64,000 nucleotides of DNA, from assembly GCF_023707985.1 (NCBI RefSeq), contig NZ_BRCF01000007.1:1-64000 (forward strand), read 5' to 3'. The position numbers were made by a program, and so were the translations under genes. Position 1 is the first letter of the stretch. Each line of letters starts with the position of its first letter. Source of the DNA: Sporosarcina sp. NCCP-2716. Lineage in GTDB: Bacteria; Bacillota; Bacilli; Bacillales_A; Planococcaceae. A model generated the notes under the pieces. That model saw only the letters and a program-made list of their open reading frames with translations, searched no databases and had not been told where the DNA came from. Positions 8,399 to 63,418 of this stretch are shown piece by piece.

Positions 8399-10021
8399 TT
8401 ACTTGAAATCTACATTCGAAAGCAAGTCGGAACCAGTCGGGTGCGGTACGAACCCAGTCAGATCCGCTGCGCCGCCAAGCAATGGCGTTGAGTGAGCAAG
8501 CGGTACCCATGGCGCTTCATCGTGAAGGATCTCTTGTGCTTTTTCATACAGTTCGTTCCGCTTGTCTTCGTCCACTTCCGTCTGAGCTTCCAGGAAGAGT
8601 TTGTGTGTCTCTTCGTTTTTGAAATACGTGTAGTTGTTGCTGCCGATATTGTCTTCGTCAAGGAGGACGTACAGGAAGTTGTCAGCGTCGCCGTTATCCC
8701 CTGTCCAGCCGAGCATGAATGCATCCGCTTCCCCTTTGCTTGCCTTATCCAAGTATGTCGCCCACTCGTACGAGACGATTTTCGCTTTGATGCCGACGTC
8801 AGCCAAGTTCTTCTGGATCACTTCAGCGACTTTCGTTCCGTCCGGCATGTATGGACGCGGAACCGGCATTGCCCACAGTTCCATTTCGAAACCGTCTGGA
8901 AGTCCTGCTTCCTTCAGCAATTCCTTCGCTTTTTCAGGATTGTACTCGTATTCTTCGATATCATCGTTGTAACCGGAGATAGAAGAAGGCATTGGGTTCT
9001 TTGCCATTTCCGCGCGTCCTTCGAAGAACGAATCGATGATTGTCTGCTTATCGATCGCATAGTTCATCGCCTGACGGACTTCCTTCTTATCAAACGGAGG
9101 ACGTGTTACCGTCAAACCGAGGTACCCGACGTTCATGGACGGACGTTCGAACAGCTGCAGGTTCGAGTCGTTCTCGATCTTTTCACCGTCGGACGGGTTG
9201 ATGCCGTCAGCGAGGTCGATTTCTCCAATTGTCAGTGCGTTCAGGCGGGCTGCGTTATCCGGGATTGAACGGAACACGACTTTGTCGAGTTTCGGAAGCC
9301 CTTCCTGCCAATAGTCTTCGTTCTTTTCGATCGTGATGGAATCGTTCGGTTTCCACTCGACAAACTTGAATGGACCCGTACCTACCGGGTTGCGCTCATA
9401 ATCATCGTCACCCTTCGCAAACGCTTCCGGGCTTGAAATTGCGAACATGCTCATCGCAAGGTTTTTCAAGAATGGTGCTTGTGCACGTTTCAGCTTGAAC
9501 ACGACTGTGTTCTCATCTTCAGCAGTCACGGATTCGATGACAGCTTCTTCATCACCATTGAATCCGCCGAACATCGAGCTGTAGTACGGGAACATTTCAG
9601 CATCCCCGCCTGCCCAGCGTGCGAAGTTCGCAACGACTGCGTCTGCGTTGAAGTCAGATCCGTCGTGGAATTTGACGCCTTCCTGCAAGTGGAATGTATA
9701 CGTCAGACCATCATCGGACGTTTCCCACTCTTTCGCAAGGCCCGGATGGATCGTTGTATCCTCCTCGCCGAAGTTGACGAGTGTTTCGAACAGGTTGACC
9801 GTTACTTTGAACGTTTCCCCTTCTGTTACGCGTGACGGATCGAGTGATGTCGAATCTCCGCCGCGGCCGAAGACGAGTGTTTTTTCTTTGCCCCCTGATT
9901 TCCCGCTGTCCCCGCTGTTTGATGCTCCCTCTTTCTTGCCATCATCCCCACAGGCTGCAAGCGCCGTGGAAAGGACTAGCAGCATAATGAGAGCAAGCGA
10001 CCATAACTTCCCTTTTCTCAT
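8399..10021 (-). CDS. oppA: Peptide-binding lipoprotein of ABC importer (OppA/DppE type, SBP family 5)
   Basis: A 540-residue family-5 substrate-binding protein. The N-terminus is a lipoprotein signal with lipobox ALAAC (lipidated Cys24) followed by an acidic/serine linker; the mature domain holds features of family 5 such as the YERNPVGTGPF segment near residue 205. It would sit on the outer face of the membrane and deliver peptides to OppB-OppC. Its ATG overlaps the oppF stop by four bases (ATGA). The 540-aa length suits dipeptide/oligopeptide binders. Confidence 0.9.
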   Translation of the reverse strand: MRKGKLWSLALIMLLVLSTALAACGDDGKKEGASNSGDSGKSGGKEKTLVFGRGGDSTSLDPSRVTEGETFKVTVNLFETLVNFGEEDTTIHPGLAKEWETSDDGLTYTFHLQEGVKFHDGSDFNADAVVANFARWAGGDAEMFPYYSSMFGGFNGDEEAVIESVTAEDENTVVFKLKRAQAPFLKNLAMSMFAISSPEAFAKGDDDYERNPVGTGPFKFVEWKPNDSITIEKNEDYWQEGLPKLDKVVFRSIPDNAARLNALTIGEIDLADGINPSDGEKIENDSNLQLFERPSMNVGYLGLTVTRPPFDKKEVRQAMNYAIDKQTIIDSFFEGRAEMAKNPMPSSISGYNDDIEEYEYNPEKAKELLKEAGLPDGFEMELWAMPVPRPYMPDGTKVAEVIQKNLADVGIKAKIVSYEWATYLDKASKGEADAFMLGWTGDNGDADNFLYVLLDEDNIGSNNYTYFKNEETHKLFLEAQTEVDEDKRNELYEKAQEILHDEAPWVPLAHSTPLLGGAADLTGFVPHPTGSDLLSNVDFK

Positions 10022-54234: not shown

Positions 54235-55254
54235 TCATGAATCCAGATCGATCTGCACAAGCGTGCGCCCATCCGGCTCCATACTGTACAGCTTTACGTC
54301 CGAGTCATTCCGTCCGAATGCCTCGTCGGCCATGAAATACACACGGCCGTCCATCCCGTAGATCGGAGTTCCGGCATATGCATGCAGCCGGGTCAGCTTT
54401 TCGATTTGCTGCGTTCCCCAGTTGTAGGAGAACAGCTCATACTCCAGGAAACCATCCTCATCCGTCCCGGCAATCGCCTGGTAGATGAGTTCGGACCGCT
54501 CCGGGATGAGGACGAAATCGTACAGGTCCGCCGTGTCTTCCGGGATGCTGATGACGAGCTTCCGGTCGGGATCCGAAAGCGGGATTTTGAAGATGCGTCC
54601 GACCGCATCCACTTCCTCCGCCGTTCCCCGTCCGCCCGTTTCCTCATCCATCTGCACATAGACGGCTTCCTCTTCGGCGGATACTTGCAGTGACGACATG
54701 CTCTGCCTGTCCATATCAGTATGCTTTTCGTGCTGTCCGCGTGCCAGGTCGTAACTGTGGACATCGAAGCCATACGGATAGAGCATCGCGCCTGGTGAAT
54801 AATCCGAGAACCGGTCCGCCTGTAAATAGAACAGGCGATCCGCCGCTTTCGGGTCCATCACAAGTTCGGTGATGACCGCATCCGCCGAGAACAGCTTTCC
54901 ACTTTCGCCGGTCAGCCGGTCCAGCCGGAACACCGTGCTCCGGCTCTCCGTCCCGAGCTCCTTGTCAGACACAGCATACAGCACGCTCTCCCCGTCGGCG
55001 GTGATGGCAATATCCAGTATGGAACGATCCGTCGGCAGCTGGACGAGCAGTTCATTCACATCAGACTTCACACTCAGCGACGGCTTGCCGTTCTCCTGGG
55101 TGACGTAGGCGATCGTCCCGTCTGCCGCCACATCGAACTGTCCTGTCAGCCCGTCCTCTTTCTCCGCTGCAGGCACGCGATACAGTACACCAAGGATGAG
55201 ACAGGCGCTCGTCAGGAAGGTGACCGCCGCCATCATCCAGCTTCTTCGATTCAT
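54235..55254 (-). CDS. Membrane-anchored propeller-like protein, copy B
   Basis: Unrecognised 339-residue protein. One N-terminal hydrophobic anchor (about 7-26; a Cys inside is not in a good lipobox) is followed by a beta-rich extracytoplasmic domain with repeated strand patterns such as TIAYVTQENGKPSL, RLFYLQA, AVYVQMD and DLYDFVLIP, suggesting a TolB-like beta-propeller. It is clearly paralogous to the protein at 56021-57049: shared blocks include SLQVS, EYELF.YNWGT and YSP near the middle. ATG overlaps the upstream stop (ATGA). Function unknown. Confidence 0.72.
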   Translation of the reverse strand: MNRRSWMMAAVTFLTSACLILGVLYRVPAAEKEDGLTGQFDVAADGTIAYVTQENGKPSLSVKSDVNELLVQLPTDRSILDIAITADGESVLYAVSDKELGTESRSTVFRLDRLTGESGKLFSADAVITELVMDPKAADRLFYLQADRFSDYSPGAMLYPYGFDVHSYDLARGQHEKHTDMDRQSMSSLQVSAEEEAVYVQMDEETGGRGTAEEVDAVGRIFKIPLSDPDRKLVISIPEDTADLYDFVLIPERSELIYQAIAGTDEDGFLEYELFSYNWGTQQIEKLTRLHAYAGTPIYGMDGRVYFMADEAFGRNDSDVKLYSMEPDGRTLVQIDLDS

Positions 55255-55913
55255 AGCCATCCCTCCCCGACTGCCAGACTAATCCAGAGTATGTACAAAA
55301 CTGCCGGCAGGATGAGCTGGAAAATGCCCAGGCAGATCACAAGCTTCCTGTCCGGCCGCTTCAGCAGGGCCGTCTGTATGGAATAGACGACGCTGAACAG
55401 CACAAACGGCACGGCCAGCAGCCAGATCGCCGTGTTTCCATCTTCGCTGAATAAGTAATAGTCATAGAAGTAACGGAGGGTGCCCGCAATCAGCAGCAGG
55501 CCGACGGATACGTTGACCGCATGCAGCACCCTTCCTTCCCCGGGAAGCCCGCCTTGCGCAGTGCCCGCGATCGCCAGTAAATACAGACTGATGACTGCAA
55601 TTCCTGACAGCAGCCAGCCTGCAGCCGTGAATACAGGAACAGCCCGCATGCCTGTATCGGCTGCGAGCCACATCCCTGTTATGATTGCCGCCCCATTCAG
55701 AAGCACCAGTATTACAGCGAGCAGGGAACGCCATGATTTTACCGCCGGCCCCATCCCGACACAGAGCAGGGCCGCTCCGCATAGACTTGCAAATAAAAGC
55801 CAGCCCATATGCGCCTCCCCGGACCCGAACAGCGCGGTCAGATAGAGGGCATATGCAAACAGAAGCGAGCCGGCCGACAGACTCACGAGCAATCGATTTC
55901 GTTTCCCCGTCAT
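55251..55913 (-). CDS. Polytopic membrane protein, copy B (no HAAS domain)
   Basis: Unrecognised 220-residue protein with six to seven helices. It aligns by eye with the membrane part of the protein at 57046-57930 (YALYLTALF / YGLYLSQLF; SVVYSIQTALLKR / GIVYALQLILLKR), but lacks that protein's N-terminal cytoplasmic domain. ATG 55913 lies seven nt after AAGGTGGGG. Coupled to the next gene by ATGA. Product of an internal duplication in this operon. Confidence 0.7.
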   Translation of the reverse strand: MTGKRNRLLVSLSAGSLLFAYALYLTALFGSGEAHMGWLLFASLCGAALLCVGMGPAVKSWRSLLAVILVLLNGAAIITGMWLAADTGMRAVPVFTAAGWLLSGIAVISLYLLAIAGTAQGGLPGEGRVLHAVNVSVGLLLIAGTLRYFYDYYLFSEDGNTAIWLLAVPFVLFSVVYSIQTALLKRPDRKLVICLGIFQLILPAVLYILWISLAVGEGWL

Positions 55914-55951
55914 GGACAAACCCCACCTTACACCTTACGTACTTTCCATTC

Positions 55952-55980
55952 AGCGTACCATTCCGGCAGCCGGGTGACAA
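55952..55980 (-). promoter_or_regulatory. possible internal promoter before module B
   Basis: On the minus strand TTGTCA (55975-55980), 17 nt, TACGCT (55952-55957) with TGG extension, in the 107-nt gap between the two modules. Confidence 0.4.
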
Positions 55981-56020
55981 TGCTTCGTTTTCGGCAGGAA
56001 CCAGAGTTTCTGAGAGCGGA

Positions 56021-57049
56021 TCAATCTGCAGCGCCTCTGAGCGGCACTTGCTCAGTTTCGCTGCCGTTCAGCTCCATGCGGAACAGCGTATAGTCCGGCT
56101 GGCGCCCTGCGAAGTTATAGTCGACCATATAGTAAAGTTTCTGATCGGCCCCATACACTGGACGGGCTGCATGTTCTTTCTGGAAGGTAAGCCGTTCGGT
56201 CTGCATTGTTCCCCAGTTATAGCCGAACAATTCGTATTCGTAGATTCCGCGGTCATTCGTACCGGCGACAGCCTGGTAAATCAGCGTCGTATGGTCCGGA
56301 ATCAGTGCGAAGTCGTACAGGTCGCCGGTTTCCATTGGCATAAAGATAATTTTCGGCTGATCCGGGCGGTCGAGTGGTATTTGGAAAATACGCTGGTTCG
56401 CTTCATACAACTCTTCAGGGGTTGTAGATTCCAGATCGTTATCCATCTGCACATAGACCGCCTGTTCTATACCCGAAACCTGCAGTGATGCCATACTGTA
56501 CTTCTGCAGTTCAGTCAGCCGGTGATGCTTCTTTTTTGCGATATCGTACGTGAAAATATCAAATTCATGGGGATACTCGGCCGCCACAGGTGAGTAGTTC
56601 GTGTAAACTCCTGCCTGCAAATAGAATAACCGGTTGGGCTCCCCTTCATCCATCGCTAGTTCTGTAATGATTGCGTCTTCTTCGAACAAGACAACATCCG
56701 TACCCTCCATGATATCGACTTCATGCACAATACTGCCGCTTCCATCAGTCATTGTTTTGTCGGTGCTTACATAGAACAGCTTTTTCCCTCCCGGCAGCAT
56801 GACGATATCCGAAATTGACTGATCGGCTGGCAGTTGGGCGGCCTGTGTCTCTTTGTCTGCCTTCACATAGATTGTCGGTTTGCCATCTTCATAGGTCACG
56901 TAACCGACTGCGCCGGAGTCCGCAACATCGTATACACCTGTCAGCCCTTGCTGCTTCTCATCATCCGGTACCTCATAACTGAAACCGAGAGACACACAGA
57001 CGGCGGTTGCCAGCACGATAGCCGCCGCGGATACATAAAGTTTTTTCAT
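56021..57049 (-). CDS. Membrane-anchored propeller-like protein, copy A
   Basis: Unrecognised 342-residue protein: N-terminal anchor or signal (about 4-24), then a beta-rich extracytoplasmic domain with regularly spaced strand repeats (AVGYVTYEDGKPTIY, KKLFYVSTDK, RLFYLQAG, AVYVQMDND, DLYDFALIPDHTTLIYQAVAGT). These recur about every 45-60 residues, as in WD40/TolB-type propellers. Paralogue of 54235-55254. AGAGGAGG before ATG 57049; overlaps the upstream stop by ATGA. Confidence 0.72.
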   Translation of the reverse strand: MKKLYVSAAAIVLATAVCVSLGFSYEVPDDEKQQGLTGVYDVADSGAVGYVTYEDGKPTIYVKADKETQAAQLPADQSISDIVMLPGGKKLFYVSTDKTMTDGSGSIVHEVDIMEGTDVVLFEEDAIITELAMDEGEPNRLFYLQAGVYTNYSPVAAEYPHEFDIFTYDIAKKKHHRLTELQKYSMASLQVSGIEQAVYVQMDNDLESTTPEELYEANQRIFQIPLDRPDQPKIIFMPMETGDLYDFALIPDHTTLIYQAVAGTNDRGIYEYELFGYNWGTMQTERLTFQKEHAARPVYGADQKLYYMVDYNFAGRQPDYTLFRMELNGSETEQVPLRGAAD

Positions 57050-57930
57050 TGCTGGGCGCCTCCTCTGACGGTGAGTATCCATAAGCCGAACAGCAGGAAC
57101 GGCATGGCGAGCTGCAGCGCCGCCATCACGTATGCAGGCCACTGCCGGCCGCGCTTCAGCAGTATCAACTGAAGTGCATAGACGATTCCCCAGACGGCAG
57201 CCGGTATAGCGAGTATCCATAGCCGCAAATAGCCTTCCGATGCGAAGATTAGAAACATATACAGGAAGAATAGCGTGCCGCAGACGAGCACGATCCCCAT
57301 GAACAAGTTGAAATAATGGATTATTTTCGTCTCCGTCCTCACGTTCATTGCCGTTGCCGGAACGTCATAGATCGTCGTACGGAAGATTAGGACGACAGCA
57401 AGCAGAAGGACAGCCGCTATCCAGATACCGAACACCGCAGAATAGGGTGGTATCAGATCCAGCGCGAGCAGCAGACCCGCCCCCATGACGGTGATGTGAA
57501 GGACGAGCAGCGTGTTCATGACCGCCCGGCGGTTCAGCAGAACGACAGGTCGCAATGTCAGGAACAAAAGTGCCGAACTCGTCGCCACGCCGAGCAGCAG
57601 CCACCCATAATGCCAGTCTCCCATGACGAAGAGCTGGCTCAAGTAGAGTCCGTACGTCATCAGCAAGGACATGATGCTGAGTGTCAGCAGCATTTCACGA
57701 CGATACGGATACATGGCATGCTGCAGCTTCCTCCCTACGTACTTGCCGTCTCCGAAATGCGTCATTGCCATTTCAGCTGCTTCCTCCTCGGAATACCCAT
57801 TTTCTTGATAGTCGGATGCCGCACATTCCAGATGGACGACCAATTCTTCGAACAGATCCTCACGCTCTTCGCGGCTGCAGTCCGTCTCATGTACAACCGC
57901 TTTGACGAACCGTTCAAACGCCGTATTCAT
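57046..57930 (-). CDS. HAAS-domain polytopic membrane protein, copy A
   Basis: A 294-residue protein. Residues about 1-75 form a helical cytoplasmic domain (EEREDLFEELVVHLECAASDYQ, EEEAAEMAMTHFG) of the HAAS/DUF1700 'permease prefix' type that accompanies PadR regulators; then seven hydrophobic helices. In known systems this domain links a membrane partner to PadR signalling. ATG 57930 overlaps the padR stop (ATGA). Function of the membrane part unknown. Confidence 0.72.
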   Translation of the reverse strand: MNTAFERFVKAVVHETDCSREEREDLFEELVVHLECAASDYQENGYSEEEAAEMAMTHFGDGKYVGRKLQHAMYPYRREMLLTLSIMSLLMTYGLYLSQLFVMGDWHYGWLLLGVATSSALLFLTLRPVVLLNRRAVMNTLLVLHITVMGAGLLLALDLIPPYSAVFGIWIAAVLLLAVVLIFRTTIYDVPATAMNVRTETKIIHYFNLFMGIVLVCGTLFFLYMFLIFASEGYLRLWILAIPAAVWGIVYALQLILLKRGRQWPAYVMAALQLAMPFLLFGLWILTVRGGAQQ

Positions 57931-58250
57931 AGCAGACCTTCCGAACTTTTGTGGACGAGCGCATTCATCCAGTCCCAATTCTCTTTCTTCTCAGCAAGTG
58001 CCTTGGTCCCTTCGTCCGTCAGCTGATAATATTTCCGTCGGCCGCTTTCCGTCTGCTGCCAGTAAGACGTCACCCATGTCTTTTTCTCCAGTCGCTTCAA
58101 GGCGGCATACAATGTTCCTTCGCTCATCTCATACGTATCTTCGCTAAGTTCCTTCAGCACCTTAACCATCTCATAACCATACATATCGCGGCGGCCGATC
58201 AGAGACAGGATGAGCAAGTCGACGCTGCCTTTCATCATTTCCTGATCCAT
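57927..58250 (-). CDS. PadR-family transcriptional regulator
   Basis: A 107-residue winged-helix repressor of the short PadR subfamily: MMKGSVDLLILSLIGRRDMYGYEM at the start, the wing SGRRKYYQLTDEG, and a short dimerisation helix. ATG 58250 follows GAGGTG by six nt (the in-frame GTG is in that site). First gene of the duplicated operon; its promoter holds a perfect inverted repeat, so autorepression is expected. Inducer unknown. Confidence 0.9.
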   Translation of the reverse strand: MDQEMMKGSVDLLILSLIGRRDMYGYEMVKVLKELSEDTYEMSEGTLYAALKRLEKKTWVTSYWQQTESGRRKYYQLTDEGTKALAEKKENWDWMNALVHKSSEGLL

Positions 58251-58283
58251 TCCAATCACCTCTTCCCAGTTTTCCCTTCACCC

Positions 58284-58302
58284 TCGCAATGCAAGGGTGT
58301 TC
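58284..58302. promoter_or_regulatory. second copy of the PadR-operator sequence
   Basis: TCGCAATGCAAGGGTGTTC repeats the sequence at 58330-58348 (two mismatches in 19), 46 bp apart; it lies in the padR leader and could be a second operator. Confidence 0.5.
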
Positions 58303-58311
58303 TTATCTACT

Positions 58312-58340
58312 ATCTTATTGCAATGTACATCGCATTGCAA
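58312..58340 (-). promoter_or_regulatory. padR operon promoter with operator
   Basis: On the minus strand TTGCAA (58335-58340), 17 nt, TAAGAT (58312-58317). A perfect dyad TTGCAATG-N7-CATTGCAA (58318-58340) covers exactly the -35 box and the spacer. Confidence 0.75.
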
Positions 58341-58352
58341 GGTTGTTCAGAT

Positions 58353-58388
58353 AAAAACGCCTGCTGTCCAAGGGGTGGACAGCAGGCG
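58353..58388 (-). terminator. terminator of the Bce-type permease gene
   Basis: CGCCTGCTGTCC and GGACAGCAGGCG (12 bp) followed on the minus strand by TTTTTAT. Confidence 0.9.
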
Positions 58389-58394
58389 ATCTGC

Positions 58395-60299
58395 TTACAA
58401 TGCGCCACGGACCGTTTTCCTATAGTAGCCGACGGTCAGGAAGGCGAAGATCAGGTAGATCACAATATACAGGCCCATGGCGATCACGGTCGGAATAGTG
58501 ATATCCGACATGAAGAGGAACGACGCGGAACGGATGGCGAAGATCGAGTGAAGAAGACCGATCATCAGCGGCAGCCCGAAGACGAACAGCTGTTTCTTCA
58601 CGATCCCTTTCATGATTTCACTGGTGCCGAAACCGAGCTGGCGGAGCGTTGTGTAACTTGCCTTCTCCTGATCCGCTTCTGTCATCTGTTTGAAATACAG
58701 GATGCTGCCCGTCGAAATGAGGAAGACGAGGCCGAGGAACCCGGCGATGAAGATCATAAGGCCGCTCGACTGGATGGATTGGTGATATTGCGTATAGTAG
58801 TCATTTTTCGCTCCGTCACTCGGAATGCTTCCATACAGTTCCGTCGCGGCTTCCAAGTCATCGGAATTGTCAAGCCGGAAAACGGAAGCCGTCTTCAGCG
58901 GCTCCCCCGCCACCTTTTTCAGCGCTTCGAACCGTTCATCGCTGACGACGAGCGTTTCATGGAAATCGAGTGTATTGAACGCGTTCCCTTCTGCGAACTT
59001 CTCCACTTGGACCGTCTCGTCTACACTGCCAGGCGCCACTGTCAGAGCAGCCGGCACTTCTGCCGTTTTTAGCAGCCAGTACAGCGGTCCGTCGAGCACG
59101 GTCCCTGACTGAGGGCTCACGAGGGATACGGGATGTCCTGCTTCTTTCATCTGCCGCTCACTGACGACGCGGAGCGATACCGTTTCATCGAGGAAGATCG
59201 GGTTAGGCGCCTTGTCGTAGAGTCCATCTATATAAAGCTCTTCGACATCTGTAGTTTCAAAAGAAATGCCTTCCTTCTTGAGTGCTTCCCGAAACTGATC
59301 AGCTGCGGCAGCATCGTCTTCGAACATGTAATCATACGGTTCCATCAGCCGTGTCTCTTTTTCAGCGGAGTAGAAGAGCGAATAGGCAGCGCCTAGCATC
59401 GTCAGTGTCATCGCGGACAGGACGGTGATGATCGTCAGCGAATTCGCATTCGACTTCATGCGGTGCATGAGCGGGGCAAGCGACAGGCTGTCTGTCAGGC
59501 CGAGATGACCTCCTTTTGCGAGCCGGATCCGGTAGAGCAGCCAGCCGATCGTCACCCGGAACAGGAGATACGTGCCGAGGATGACGGAGGCGAGCACAGC
59601 CAGCATGTTGACGAACAGCAGCGCATTCAGCATGCGCCCCGACAGCCAATAGCCGAACGCAATCAGCAGGATTCCGAGTATGGCAAGAATCGCTGAAATA
59701 CCGGGCTTCGGCTTTTTAACAGCTTCCCCCGTCCGTTCGCTGTTGAACAGGGAGATAAGCGTACTGCGCTTGACGGCGAATGCCATCTGCAGCGAGGTGA
59801 GGATGAGCAATAAGAGGAATACGACAGCCGTCTGGACAACCGCAGCCCCCGAAAACGTCATGGTCAGCACACCTTCGACGCCGACCAGCTTCATGAGCAG
59901 CAGCAGGAAGATACGGGAGACGAGAAGCCCTGTGACGATGCCGACAGCCAGTGCCCCGATACCCATGAGCAGATTTTCCATGATCAGCATCCGGCTCACA
60001 GTGAACTTGGAAAGGCCGATCAGCTGATACAGTCCGACTTCCCGGCTTCTGCGCTTCAGGAAGATTGAATTTGCATAGAGGACGAAAACTCCGGAGATGA
60101 ACAGCAGGAGGATGCCCGCGACCTTGAACGTCGCAGCCATATTGAACGACGCCCCTGTCCGTTCCGCCACGCTCCCGTCATGCTGCAGTGACGCGAAGAC
60201 GAAATACAGCACCACACTGACGATCATCGCAAAGAAATACAGATAGTAATGTTTCAGGTTCTTCCGCATACTGCGGACGACCAGGTCAAAGAGCGTCAA
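58395..60299 (-). CDS. BceB-type ABC permease (peptide antibiotic detoxification)
   Basis: A 634-residue permease with ten helices, FtsX-like repeats and one large outer domain between helices 7 and 8 (about 300-500), the hallmark of BceB/VraG transporters that sense and remove peptide antibiotics bound to cell-wall lipids. The start at TTG 60299 gives [19 protein letters not shown], the usual family opening; GGGGG lies eight nt upstream. Overlaps the ATPase gene by 14 nt. Specific antibiotic unknown. Confidence 0.87.
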
Positions 60300-61062
60300 C
60301 GCTGTCACCCCCGAGAATCCCCTGGACTTTCAGGATCTCCTGGAAGAACTGCTGTCTCGTCTGATCCCCTCGATATAGTTCGGAATAGATCTTGCCGTCT
60401 TTCAGGAAGACGACCCGGCTGCAATAGCTCGATGCGACAGGATCATGGGTCACCATCATGATCGTCACGTTCCGCTCACGGTTCACCTGCTCAAGCGTAC
60501 CGAGCAGGGAAGCGGCTGATTTCGAGTCGAGCGCACCCGTCGGCTCATCCGCGAACACGATGGACGGCTCATGGATGAGCGCCCGCGCGGCAGATGTCCG
60601 CTGTTTCTGCCCGCCTGAAATCTCATTCGGATATTTGTCCGCCAGATCAGCGATGCCGAGAATACGGGCAATCGATTTGAATTGATCTTCTGCAACGACC
60701 CGCTTGACCTTGCCGACCGAAATCGGCAGCAGGATGTTCTCTTTAATGGTCAGCGTGTCGAGCAGGTTGTAATCCTGGAAGATGAACCCGAGCTGATCCC
60801 GGCGGAACTGGGACAGCTTCCGGTCATTCATAGTTGATATCGGCGTGCTGCCGATCGTGATGGACCCTTCTGTCGGGCGGTCGATCGTCGCCAGCACATT
60901 CAGGAGTGTCGTCTTGCCTGCCCCTGAAGGACCCATGATTCCGACGAATTCCCCCTCCATCACGCGCAGATCGATCCCTTTCAAGACGTGCTGGATCTGT
61001 TTGCGGGTCCCGAATGACTTGCGGAGGGATTCCGCATGCAGCATTGTTTGTAGTTGTGTCAT
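60286..61062 (-). CDS. BceA-type ABC ATPase
   Basis: A 258-residue ATPase of the MacB/BceA type: Walker [10 protein letters not shown] (about 44-52), signature ISGGQKQR, Walker [13 protein letters not shown], switch VTHDP. Works with the following permease. ATG 61062 after GGGAGG. Transcribed from a promoter in the 102-nt gap behind the kinase gene, where a response-regulator site is visible. Confidence 0.9.
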
Positions 61063-61153
61063 GTTCGTGCCTCCCTGTTTTTCTTATATATTCACTTTAC
61101 GGCAGAAAAACAGAAGGGTCGTTCGATTTGCATGACAAACCCGGACGGCAACC

Positions 61154-61167
61154 TTACAATTTTGTCA
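61154..61167. promoter_or_regulatory. BceR-type operator upstream of the ABC genes
   Basis: On the minus strand TGACAAAATTGTAA fits the TNACA-N4-TGTAA pattern of BceR-like regulators. It overlaps the kinase stop codon and is about 92 nt before the ATPase start, as in characterised bce promoters. Confidence 0.72.
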
Positions 61168-62187
61168 CTTGCGCGTCGCATCGAACTCATTTTCCATAGG
61201 AAACGTCATGATCATCTCGGTGCCGAAGCCGAAATCGGACTGCACGCGCAGCTGGATTCCGAGCTTCTCGGCTGACTGCCTTGCCAAGAACAACCCGAGC
61301 CCGGTCGCGGCGTTATGGATCCGTCCGGCACTTCCTGTGAACCCTTTGTCGAAAATCCGAGGCTGTTCGTGTGCCGGGATTCCGGGTCCTTCGTCTTTGA
61401 TATGGAGACTCAGCCGGCCAGCATCGTCATGTACGGCCGTTATCCAGATCGTTCCGCCTGGCGGGCTGTACTTGACGGCATTCGTCAGCAGCTGCCTGAT
61501 GATGAACCGGCACCACTTTGCGTCGGTGACAGTATTCCCCGGCTCATCTGCGAGATCGATCGCAATGTTGTGTTCCAGGCACCACGGCATCAGATGACGG
61601 ATCTCGTCCGTCGCCAGCCGCTTGATGTCCGCCTCTTCCAGTACGTAATCCGCTTCGAGCGACGGCAGCCGTGATAAGTACAGCTGCTGATCGACCAGCA
61701 GGCTGATCCGCAGCCACGATGCCTCCACTTTGCGCATTGCGTCATCTGTTCGGTTGGCATCGATGACGAGCTTCATGGCCGTCAGGGGCGCTTTCACTTC
61801 GTGCACCCATGCTGCCGTGTCATTCTGTCGGCTTCGGACAGCTGCCTGTAGCCCGGCAGCCTGCTCCATATAAGTCCGGTCAAGCCGGCGGAGCAGATCG
61901 GAAATCACCGTCTGCCCGTTCGACTGGGCAGCCGGCAGCTTCTCCAGCCAGTCTTCCTCCAGTTCCCGGGTCAGTTCCTGCAGGGCCCGCACATATGCAG
62001 TCTCTTTACGGTAACGCCAGCTGAAAAAGAGGAAAAACGCCACAAGCAGCAGCCCGTTCAGATACAGCACGGAAGTCATCGGGAGAGCGAGCCCTGCATC
62101 GAGGAACAGAAGGAGGTCAACAAGCAGCAGGGAACCGGCATACAGACCGATCCAGCCGGCACGGTCACGGATATAGCCGTTCAGCAT
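61165..62187 (-). CDS. BceS-type intramembrane-sensing histidine kinase
   Basis: A 340-residue kinase with two N-terminal helices (about 13-31 and 36-56) joined by only a few outer residues, as expected for kinases that sense through their BceAB partner. Phosphorylated His in WVHEVKAPLTA (about 128), N box NAVKYSPPGG, and G boxes DEGPGIP and GLGLFLA. ATG 62187 overlaps the regulator's end by seven nt. Confidence 0.9.
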   Translation of the reverse strand: MLNGYIRDRAGWIGLYAGSLLLVDLLLFLDAGLALPMTSVLYLNGLLLVAFFLFFSWRYRKETAYVRALQELTRELEEDWLEKLPAAQSNGQTVISDLLRRLDRTYMEQAAGLQAAVRSRQNDTAAWVHEVKAPLTAMKLVIDANRTDDAMRKVEASWLRISLLVDQQLYLSRLPSLEADYVLEEADIKRLATDEIRHLMPWCLEHNIAIDLADEPGNTVTDAKWCRFIIRQLLTNAVKYSPPGGTIWITAVHDDAGRLSLHIKDEGPGIPAHEQPRIFDKGFTGSAGRIHNAATGLGLFLARQSAEKLGIQLRVQSDFGFGTEMIMTFPMENEFDATRK

Positions 62188-62888
62188 GCCGGCCCTTCCT
62201 TGACCGTGACTGCCATGTAGCCCATCCCTTTCTTCGTGAGGATCGCCTCACCAAGCCCCAGTTCCCCGAGTTTCTGGCGCAGCCGGGTGACATTCACGGT
62301 GAGCGTATTGTCATTGACGAACCGCTCGTCGTCCCAGAGCCGCCGGATCAGTTCATCCCTCGGAACGATCGTGTCCGCGGATTCCACCAGGATGGTCAGG
62401 ATGTAGAATTCGTTTTTCGTCAACTCCACTTCCTGACTGTCCCTTCTGATCACACTTTTCTTCATGTCGATAACCGTCCCGTTCCACAGCAGACTGTCTG
62501 CCGCTTCATCGATTTCGCTGTACGCATAGGCCCGCCGCAAGGACGCCTGGATCTTAGCAAGCAGGACATCCATGTGGAATGGTTTCTGGACATAGTCGTC
62601 CCCGCCCATATTCATCGCCATGATCATGTCCATCGGATGGTCGCGCGACGATAGGAAAATAATCGGCACATTCGACACTGCCCGGATTTCCCGGCACCAG
62701 TGGAACCCATCATATGCCGGCAGCTGGATATCCAAGATGACGAGCTGCGGCTGGATCTCAAGGAAATCAGTCATCACGTCCTGGAACGTCTGCGGGTTTT
62801 CCACACGGTAGGACCACTGTTCCAGATGTTCCTTCAGGGAGCCGAATATCGCCTCGTCATCCTCCACGACAAAAATCGTTCCATTCAT
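62181..62888 (-). CDS. BceR-type response regulator (OmpR/PhoB family)
   Basis: A 235-residue regulator: receiver with acidic pair EDD (about 10-12), phospho-Asp in VILDIQLP, Lys in VQKPFH; then a winged-helix DNA-binding domain (about 130-235). Start taken at ATG 62888, nine nt after GGAAGG; ATG 62894, which overlaps the upstream stop, is the alternative. Expected to act at the operator ahead of the ABC genes. Confidence 0.9.
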   Translation of the reverse strand: MNGTIFVVEDDEAIFGSLKEHLEQWSYRVENPQTFQDVMTDFLEIQPQLVILDIQLPAYDGFHWCREIRAVSNVPIIFLSSRDHPMDMIMAMNMGGDDYVQKPFHMDVLLAKIQASLRRAYAYSEIDEAADSLLWNGTVIDMKKSVIRRDSQEVELTKNEFYILTILVESADTIVPRDELIRRLWDDERFVNDNTLTVNVTRLRQKLGELGLGEAILTKKGMGYMAVTVKEGPAC

Positions 62889-62890
62889 AG

Positions 62891-63418
62891 TCATGCCCCT
62901 TCCTGAAGACGGTTCAGCACGTGCAGTGTATCCATGACATGCTGGAGGAAAACCGGCATTTCGTTCATATTTTCTTCGGTCAGCCGTTTCTGGAAAACGG
63001 CATCGATCGTATTCTGCATGTTGTGCGGCCGCTCTCCGAATGTATAGCTGACGGTCTGGCTAAGTTCGATTTCGCCCTCCCAGATCGAGCCGAATACGTG
63101 CTCGATCGCTGGGCACTCATCATCAGGATTGGCGCACGCTTTCGTAAAGCGCAGTGCAAGCGTACAACCAGGCTGTGAATTCGGAAGGTCCATGATTTCT
63201 CCCGCCAGGTCCTTCACCCCGGCGCGCAAGATGAGGGAGGCTTCGATCTCAGGCTTGTCTTTAAGCACAAAGACCAGTACAAATTTACGGGCAAGAACAG
63301 CAAAGTCCATGACGTCCTCCCGATCATGGATTTCGATCATCTCTTCGATCGCCTCGTAGTCATACAACTGGTTTTCCAATGCAACTTTCAAGTTGTCAAA
63401 TATGGTCGGATCATACAT
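62891..63418 (-). CDS. Unrecognised acidic protein upstream of the Bce module
   Basis: A 175-residue soluble, acidic protein without signal or membrane segment; three Cys in GCTLALRFTKACANPDDECP. I do not recognise the family. ACAGGAG lies before ATG 63418; the frame extends 59 codons further but without a site. It ends 2 nt before the response regulator start, so it is in the same transcript and may be co-regulated with the two-component system. Function unknown. Confidence 0.62.
   Translation of the reverse strand: MYDPTIFDNLKVALENQLYDYEAIEEMIEIHDREDVMDFAVLARKFVLVFVLKDKPEIEASLILRAGVKDLAGEIMDLPNSQPGCTLALRFTKACANPDDECPAIEHVFGSIWEGEIELSQTVSYTFGERPHNMQNTIDAVFQKRLTEENMNEMPVFLQHVMDTLHVLNRLQEGA

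Follow-up and report, generated by a model that had tools for sequence, protein, structure and literature searches.

The window analysed here, a stretch of 64,000 nucleotides from Sporosarcina sp. NCCP-2716, carries five genes in the order padR, MemA, PropA, MemB and PropB. All five lie on the minus strand, and the order and coordinates given for them in a preliminary description of this DNA proved to be exact. The genes and the features that precede them are as follows.

58250-57927, minus strand: padR, 107 aa, a small PadR winged-helix regulator (PF03551, E 5.2e-25) with PadR/LmrR relatives in the PDB
57930-57046, minus strand: MemA, 294 aa, a HAAS-like (perm_prefix_1) domain at about residues 1-73, then seven predicted transmembrane (TM) helices
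57049-56021, minus strand: PropA, 342 aa, a TM anchor (residues 2-24) and a predicted six-bladed TolB-type beta-propeller (residues 35-338)
55913-55251, minus strand: MemB, 220 aa, a paralogue of the TM part of MemA, without the HAAS-like domain
55254-54235, minus strand: PropB, 339 aa, a paralogue of PropA (46% identity) belonging to a B clade that is monophyletic with 100/100 support
58311..58342, minus strand: putative PadR operator and promoter, CCTTGCAATGCGATGTACATTGCAATAAGATA, with -35 TTGCAA, a 17-nt spacer, -10 TAAGAT and the core ATGTACAT
58281..58297, minus strand: second half-operator CCCTTGCATTGCGAGGG, 46 bp downstream of the first half-site, read from the sequence
58358..58388, minus strand: terminator-like hairpin with a 13-pair stem and a T run, from a consensus scan

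Reading of the sequence places ATGA overlaps at the padR/MemA, MemA/PropA and MemB/PropB junctions, just as first described. The fixed stoichiometry that had been deduced from these overlaps goes a step beyond them, and the overlap between MemA and PropA is not a general feature: in many Sporosarcina loci about 15 bp lie between these two genes. PropA and MemB are separated by a gap of 107 bp, in which a consensus scan called neither a terminator nor a promoter, and in the window a single transcript probably covers both pair A (MemA and PropA) and pair B (MemB and PropB). The hairpin is placed between padR and an upstream Bce-type operon. The latter, at 58395-62894 of the window, comprises a BceAB-type transporter, a histidine kinase and a response regulator; BceAB-type transporter genes also occur near the operon in loci L006-L011 and in the Aquibacillus locus L029.

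Control of the operon by PadR, as originally put forward, is supported by a conserved putative operator that spans the promoter. This 32-nt near-palindrome upstream of padR, with the ATGTACAT core, covers the -35 and -10 hexamers at their 17-nt spacing and, with a matrix score of 39.1, is the best site of the window. It is an inverted site of the ATGT/ACAT type at padR's own promoter, as in PadR autoregulators; such operators are described for PadR proteins (PMC3506622), and LltR, LftR and LstR of Listeria are reported to be autoregulatory (PMC6624303). The two operator halves abut in this operon, whereas the LmrR operator is described as having a spacer of 8-10 nt (PMC3506622). A matrix trained on 11 loci outside the genus, with training sites picked by a consensus written after all loci had been seen, outscored every one of 200 dinucleotide shuffles at 19 of the 20 test loci, including the window (as L001). 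L006 cleared this test narrowly (6.2 versus 4.6) and the sole miss was L009, in which padR is frameshifted. Palindromy alone exceeded 40 shuffles in just 8 of 31 upstream regions. We infer that PadR binds at this site and keeps the transcript as a whole repressed.

In the window and its relatives carrying both pairs (A+B loci), the operator is less symmetrical than elsewhere, which we count against the explanation favoured below. The four A+B loci with an intact padR (the window, L006, L007 and L008) carry two half-sites at a distance of 45-47 bp, and none of the remaining 27 upstream regions has such a pair, one or none being present in that form. The confinement of double half-sites to A+B loci suggests that the duplication was accompanied by a rebuilt control region, and the paired half-operators could involve looping or two PadR dimers.

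Structures were predicted for MemA and PropA, each as a single chain. In MemA (pLDDT 85.6), hydropathy and the AlphaFold model were used to predict seven TM helices, most of them joined by short loops (77-103, 108-126, 134-157, 163-188, 199-229, 234-259, and 263-273 with 275-293), and the protein would be oriented N-in C-out. The domain preceding the helices matches NCBIfam perm_prefix_1 (NF038403) at 38.4 bits against a cut-off of 30, as do 21 of the 28 members of the MemA alignment. Pfam HAAS (PF22564) is sub-threshold in MemA (13.9 versus 27 bits) and is reached at E 0.01 by just 2 of the 28 members; PF22564.3 is carried by 5 of 50 MemA homologues. Using hhalign, the domain scored 97.6% against the N-terminal domain of a PadR-adjacent FtsW-like protein from its own genome (five shuffles, 0.1%) and 0.2%, no match, against the Pfam-recognised HAAS domain of the same genome. 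The GxP motif of HAAS helix 3 is absent, MemA having FGDGKYVG at this point and the MemA-family alignment no conserved P; the FtsW-like protein is also without it. Because of the missing motif, we call the domain HAAS-like, of the perm_prefix_1 branch; the system resembles HAAS-PadR in its construction and is a candidate for membership in the strict sense. MemB is 32% identical to MemA residues 73-288, and since its alignment starts at residue 73 it is without the first ~73 residues. No HAAS match was found in the MemB DNA at E 1e-3, which bears out the earlier statement that copy B has no HAAS domain.

Elsewhere in this genome, outside the window, a PadR gene lies directly upstream of a gene for a protein with an N-terminal HAAS domain (G000:C7:113244-114591; L104, L106; PF22564, 58.2 bits), whose repetitive beta-rich body has, by reading, the look of Toastrack/DUF4097. 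On the minus strand of G000:C13, at about 20.2-22.4 kb (L107), an ECF-sigma-like gene, a PadR gene (PF03551, 36.2 bits) and a gene for a HAAS-like FtsW/RodA-type membrane protein form a cluster that resembles the Listeria sigC-lstR-lmo0421 operon.

The propeller fold proposed at the outset is upheld by the PropA model (pLDDT 86.8), which contains one TM helix and a six-bladed propeller, the blades being counted from the strand list. Its twelve best matches among solved structures are all TolB, the component of the Gram-negative Tol-Pal system whose propeller is also six-bladed. The model aligns to TolB from residue about 164, with 13% identity over the aligned part. In TolB the residues before the propeller form an N-terminal alpha/beta domain; PropA differs in being without this domain and in having a TM anchor in its place, residues 1-34 forming the TM helix and a linker. 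Tol-Pal genes were absent from the scanned neighbours. The propeller of PropA would lie on the outer face of the membrane. Many of these propellers are annotated with Pfam accession PF26549. Three distant relatives without a nearby PadR or membrane partner (L055, L057 and L058) start with what we take to be a lipoprotein signal, and membrane anchoring may be kept by this other means.

The pair recurs in other genomes, as the initial reading of the locus supposed. With one genome scanned per species, 29 loci came to light, and padR, membrane protein and propeller genes stand in a row in 22 of the 29 named loci (two of the 22, L023 and L027, with broken members), in the genera Sporosarcina, Oceanobacillus, Aquibacillus and Evansella. 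At E 1e-12 the propeller profile hit 32 genomes out of 68 in the genus, 24 out of 398 in the class and 3 out of 398 in the phylum. A family search at E 1e-3 gave matches in 77 of 200 genomes: 16 lay below E 1e-90, a further 7 were full-length at 1e-22 to 1e-31, and the other 54 were short and mostly located inside ORFs of ~660 aa. Distant members are often without PadR or a membrane partner (L036, L051-L053, L055-L060 and L103, usually with 1.5 kb inspected on each side), and in L037 and L054 a PadR-like gene lies on the other strand, about 1.1-1.2 kb off. From the membrane protein side, 50 MemA relatives were taken from the 7999 best-sharing candidates scored; by eye count, 24 of them (the window's own included) were in clusters matched to a propeller hit by the equal length of their longest contigs, which points again to linkage.

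To relate the presence of PadR to that of the HAAS-like domain, we surveyed 46 distinct units having at least 1.5 kb upstream. PadR and a TM gene are adjacent in 29 of these, and a complete HAAS-like domain is present in 28 of the 29, the exception being L040, where a split membrane gene retains part of the domain. Another 11 units consist of the TM part and a propeller without an intact PadR (window B, L006-B, L007-B, L009, L010, L011, L097, L100-B, L013, L026 and L090), and none of the 11 has a complete HAAS-like domain. In five units the propeller stands alone (L036, L051, L059, L093 and L103). A relic of the HAAS-like domain is detectable in L013 and L026, and by eye in L090. These three loci are without padR, the operator and most of the domain, and their similar upstream remains suggest that the losses stem from one event. 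In the propeller tree, the L013 and L090 genomes fall outside the B clade (L026 is absent from the tree), the two losses, that of the B clade and that of the S. highlanderae group, being located well apart on different branches. Decayed loci are common (L019/L094, L023, L026, with a frameshifted propeller, L027 and L040), which counts against the explanation we prefer, as do the many distant propellers that stand without a nearby partner. L045, in which padR lies 134 bp before the propeller and the membrane gene is gone, is a counter-example, and L094 (S. ureae), the remaining one of the 46 units, with a truncated padR, the HAAS-like domain and a broken membrane gene, likewise counts against it. 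Overall, the pattern of loss argues for a division of the operon into two halves: a control module of PadR and HAAS that seems able to be detached, and a 7TM-propeller pair that seems to do the work. The joint loss of HAAS and PadR is also indirect support for a signal passing from the one to the other.

This pattern also bears on an unlikely alternative, namely that PadR is itself the sensor and, like LmrR, binds an amphipathic drug directly, the 7TM-propeller being mere output of a resistance or efflux-like kind and HAAS serving to tune PadR. The size of PadR and its kinship to LmrR are in its favour, as is W92, which aligns with a Trp of LmrR and is found in 12 of 12 rows of the PadR alignment. 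The aligned Trp binds drugs in LmrR, and PadR might, given W92, itself bind a ligand, a point against the explanation favoured below. However, the failure of every PadR-less unit to keep a complete HAAS-like domain is what would be expected if HAAS were the partner of PadR, and the related bcPadR1 is described as binding DNA in vitro irrespective of inducer, though by the same account it has no Trp pore of the LmrR type (PMC3506622).

Judged by dN/dS, both the membrane protein and the propeller are under purifying selection where an intact PadR is missing. In PadR-less pairs the ratio is 0.06-0.10 for the propeller and 0.20-0.29 for the membrane protein, values that are rough since dS is 0.9-2.4. 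The comparisons L009-L010 and L010-L011 gave 0.09 and 0.06 for PropB and 0.29 and 0.20 for MemB, and L013-L090 gave 0.10 for the propeller and 0.21 for the membrane protein. It is therefore improbable that the 7TM-propeller serves purely as a sensor that measures the envelope on behalf of other genes, the real outputs: the pair persists under selection without an intact PadR, and the 17-nt operator core has a single match in its own genome at up to one mismatch, although in keeping with such a role the family profile search placed none of the five proteins above cut-off in any recognised family of enzymes or transporters. The preliminary description had spoken of a sensor; this role is possible, but not as the sole one, because two lineages have kept the TM-propeller pair after losing intact PadR and HAAS, and the pair is thus probably an effector as well. 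Of the two roles, that of effector is the better supported.

The view that both halves of the operon are paralogous pairs agrees with the identities (46% for PropB/PropA, 32% for MemB/MemA) and with the propeller tree (57 sequences), in which the B copies form one clade (100/100) that adjoins the A copies of the same subclade, with the joint set again at 100/100. These groupings indicate one duplication, inside one subclade. HAAS is missing in every B copy examined. MemB evolves faster than MemA (dN/dS 0.27 versus 0.09 for window-L006, where dS is near 2, and 0.28 versus 0.21 for L007-L008), while PropB and PropA evolve at about the same rate. In the genomes of L009, L010, L011 and L097 (G157, G956, G943 and G152), B is the sole propeller found. 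Flanking genes are common to the L009-L011 sites and the A+B loci, which makes it probable that the A pair disappeared in situ, although a MemA-like protein recorded on another contig (P0141) for S. gallistercoris, the species of L011, argues against a species-wide loss of A. The idea that copy B serves no function and is decaying as the leftover of a tandem duplication is hard to credit, the speed of MemB and the missing HAAS notwithstanding, given the constraint on PropB (dN/dS 0.06-0.12) and the genomes in which B stands as the only propeller. In the gap that separates pair B from pair A, or from the padR relic, L007 (9791-10399) and L009 (6340-6948) contain a small ORF that reads as kinase-like, and in L006 this gap holds an acetyltransferase-like ORF instead (9116-9673).

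Taking these results together, we consider it probable that the locus is an envelope-stress operon of the HAAS/PadR type that represses itself and works without a kinase, with the 7TM-propeller as effector and HAAS-PadR as its control. In favour of this explanation, two further PadR genes of this genome are likewise followed by genes for HAAS or HAAS-like proteins; on the other side, the GxP motif is missing and the mirror-tree correlation between propeller and TM protein (0.967) barely exceeds that between propeller and PadR (0.930). The layout of the Listeria lltR operon and the data on BC4207 and AS-48, both discussed below, lead us to propose that the 7TM-propeller meets the insult and frees its own operon via HAAS. 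MemA and PropA would form a membrane complex with the propeller outside. A ligand or membrane lesion perceived by the propeller or the 7TM domain would change the HAAS-like domain, which would then release or disarm PadR, inducing the operon, and the same complex would act as an effector protecting the envelope. Pair B would be a duplicated effector that has shed the control domain, so that A reports and acts and B only acts. The full chain, in which the outside TolB-type propeller signals through the 7TM domain to a HAAS-like domain that strips PadR, with the complex itself protective and the uncoupled second copy as amplifier, is offered more tentatively. Together with its compactness, the existence of natural strains that kept the working half after losing the control half makes it directly testable which part senses, which couples and which acts. 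In addition, the operon gives context to a Gram-positive family of TolB-like propellers whose function is blank in most database records.

The preliminary description could not match the operon to a named system. It does match the HAAS-PadR dyad, proposed in 2024 from comparative genomics as an alternative to two-component systems (PMC11237479), as well as the Listeria lltR layout (PMC6624303). In common with the dyad, the PadR gene lies directly upstream of a gene for a membrane protein with an N-terminal HAAS-like domain, and there is no kinase; in contrast, the GxP motif is missing here and the sensor part consists of a 7TM domain and a separate propeller protein. The HAAS partners given in the accessible text of PMC11237479 are FtsX, FtsW/RodA, VanZ, PspC, LiaI-LiaF, Toastrack, pentapeptide and uncharacterised 6/4/2-TM proteins, with no propeller among them, and 'propeller' appears once in the main text, for another system. 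In the open-licence main texts searched, we did not find a propeller partner of PadR/HAAS described. The HAAS-PadR kind is therefore already on record and the propeller partner seems new to it. The operon provides a compact case, with one operator, one regulator, one coupling domain and one propeller partner.

Bacillus cereus BC4206-BC4207 offers a second parallel: a PadR-repressed membrane protein, induction by a membrane-active peptide and a putative ATGT/ACAT-type site at its own promoter (PMC2774856, PMC3506622). As described there, it differs in having two genes only, four TM segments in BC4207 and no propeller. Overexpression of BC4207 is reported to give more resistance to the peptide AS-48 (PMC2774856), and DNA binding by its PadR in vitro is reported to be indifferent to AS-48 (PMC3506622), which by analogy is in keeping with indirect sensing. 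Similar in layout is the lltR-lmo0600-lmo0601 operon of Listeria (Hauf et al. 2019, PMC6624303), described as autorepressed and as encoding a PadR, a multi-spanning DUF1700 membrane protein and a hypothetical exoprotein; on derepression, the membrane protein is reported to hamper growth at low temperature. The accessible text of that paper makes no mention of a duplicated pair. Both operons have the three-part arrangement of PadR, membrane protein and a third gene, the third gene product being a DUF4097 exoprotein in Listeria and a TolB-type propeller here.
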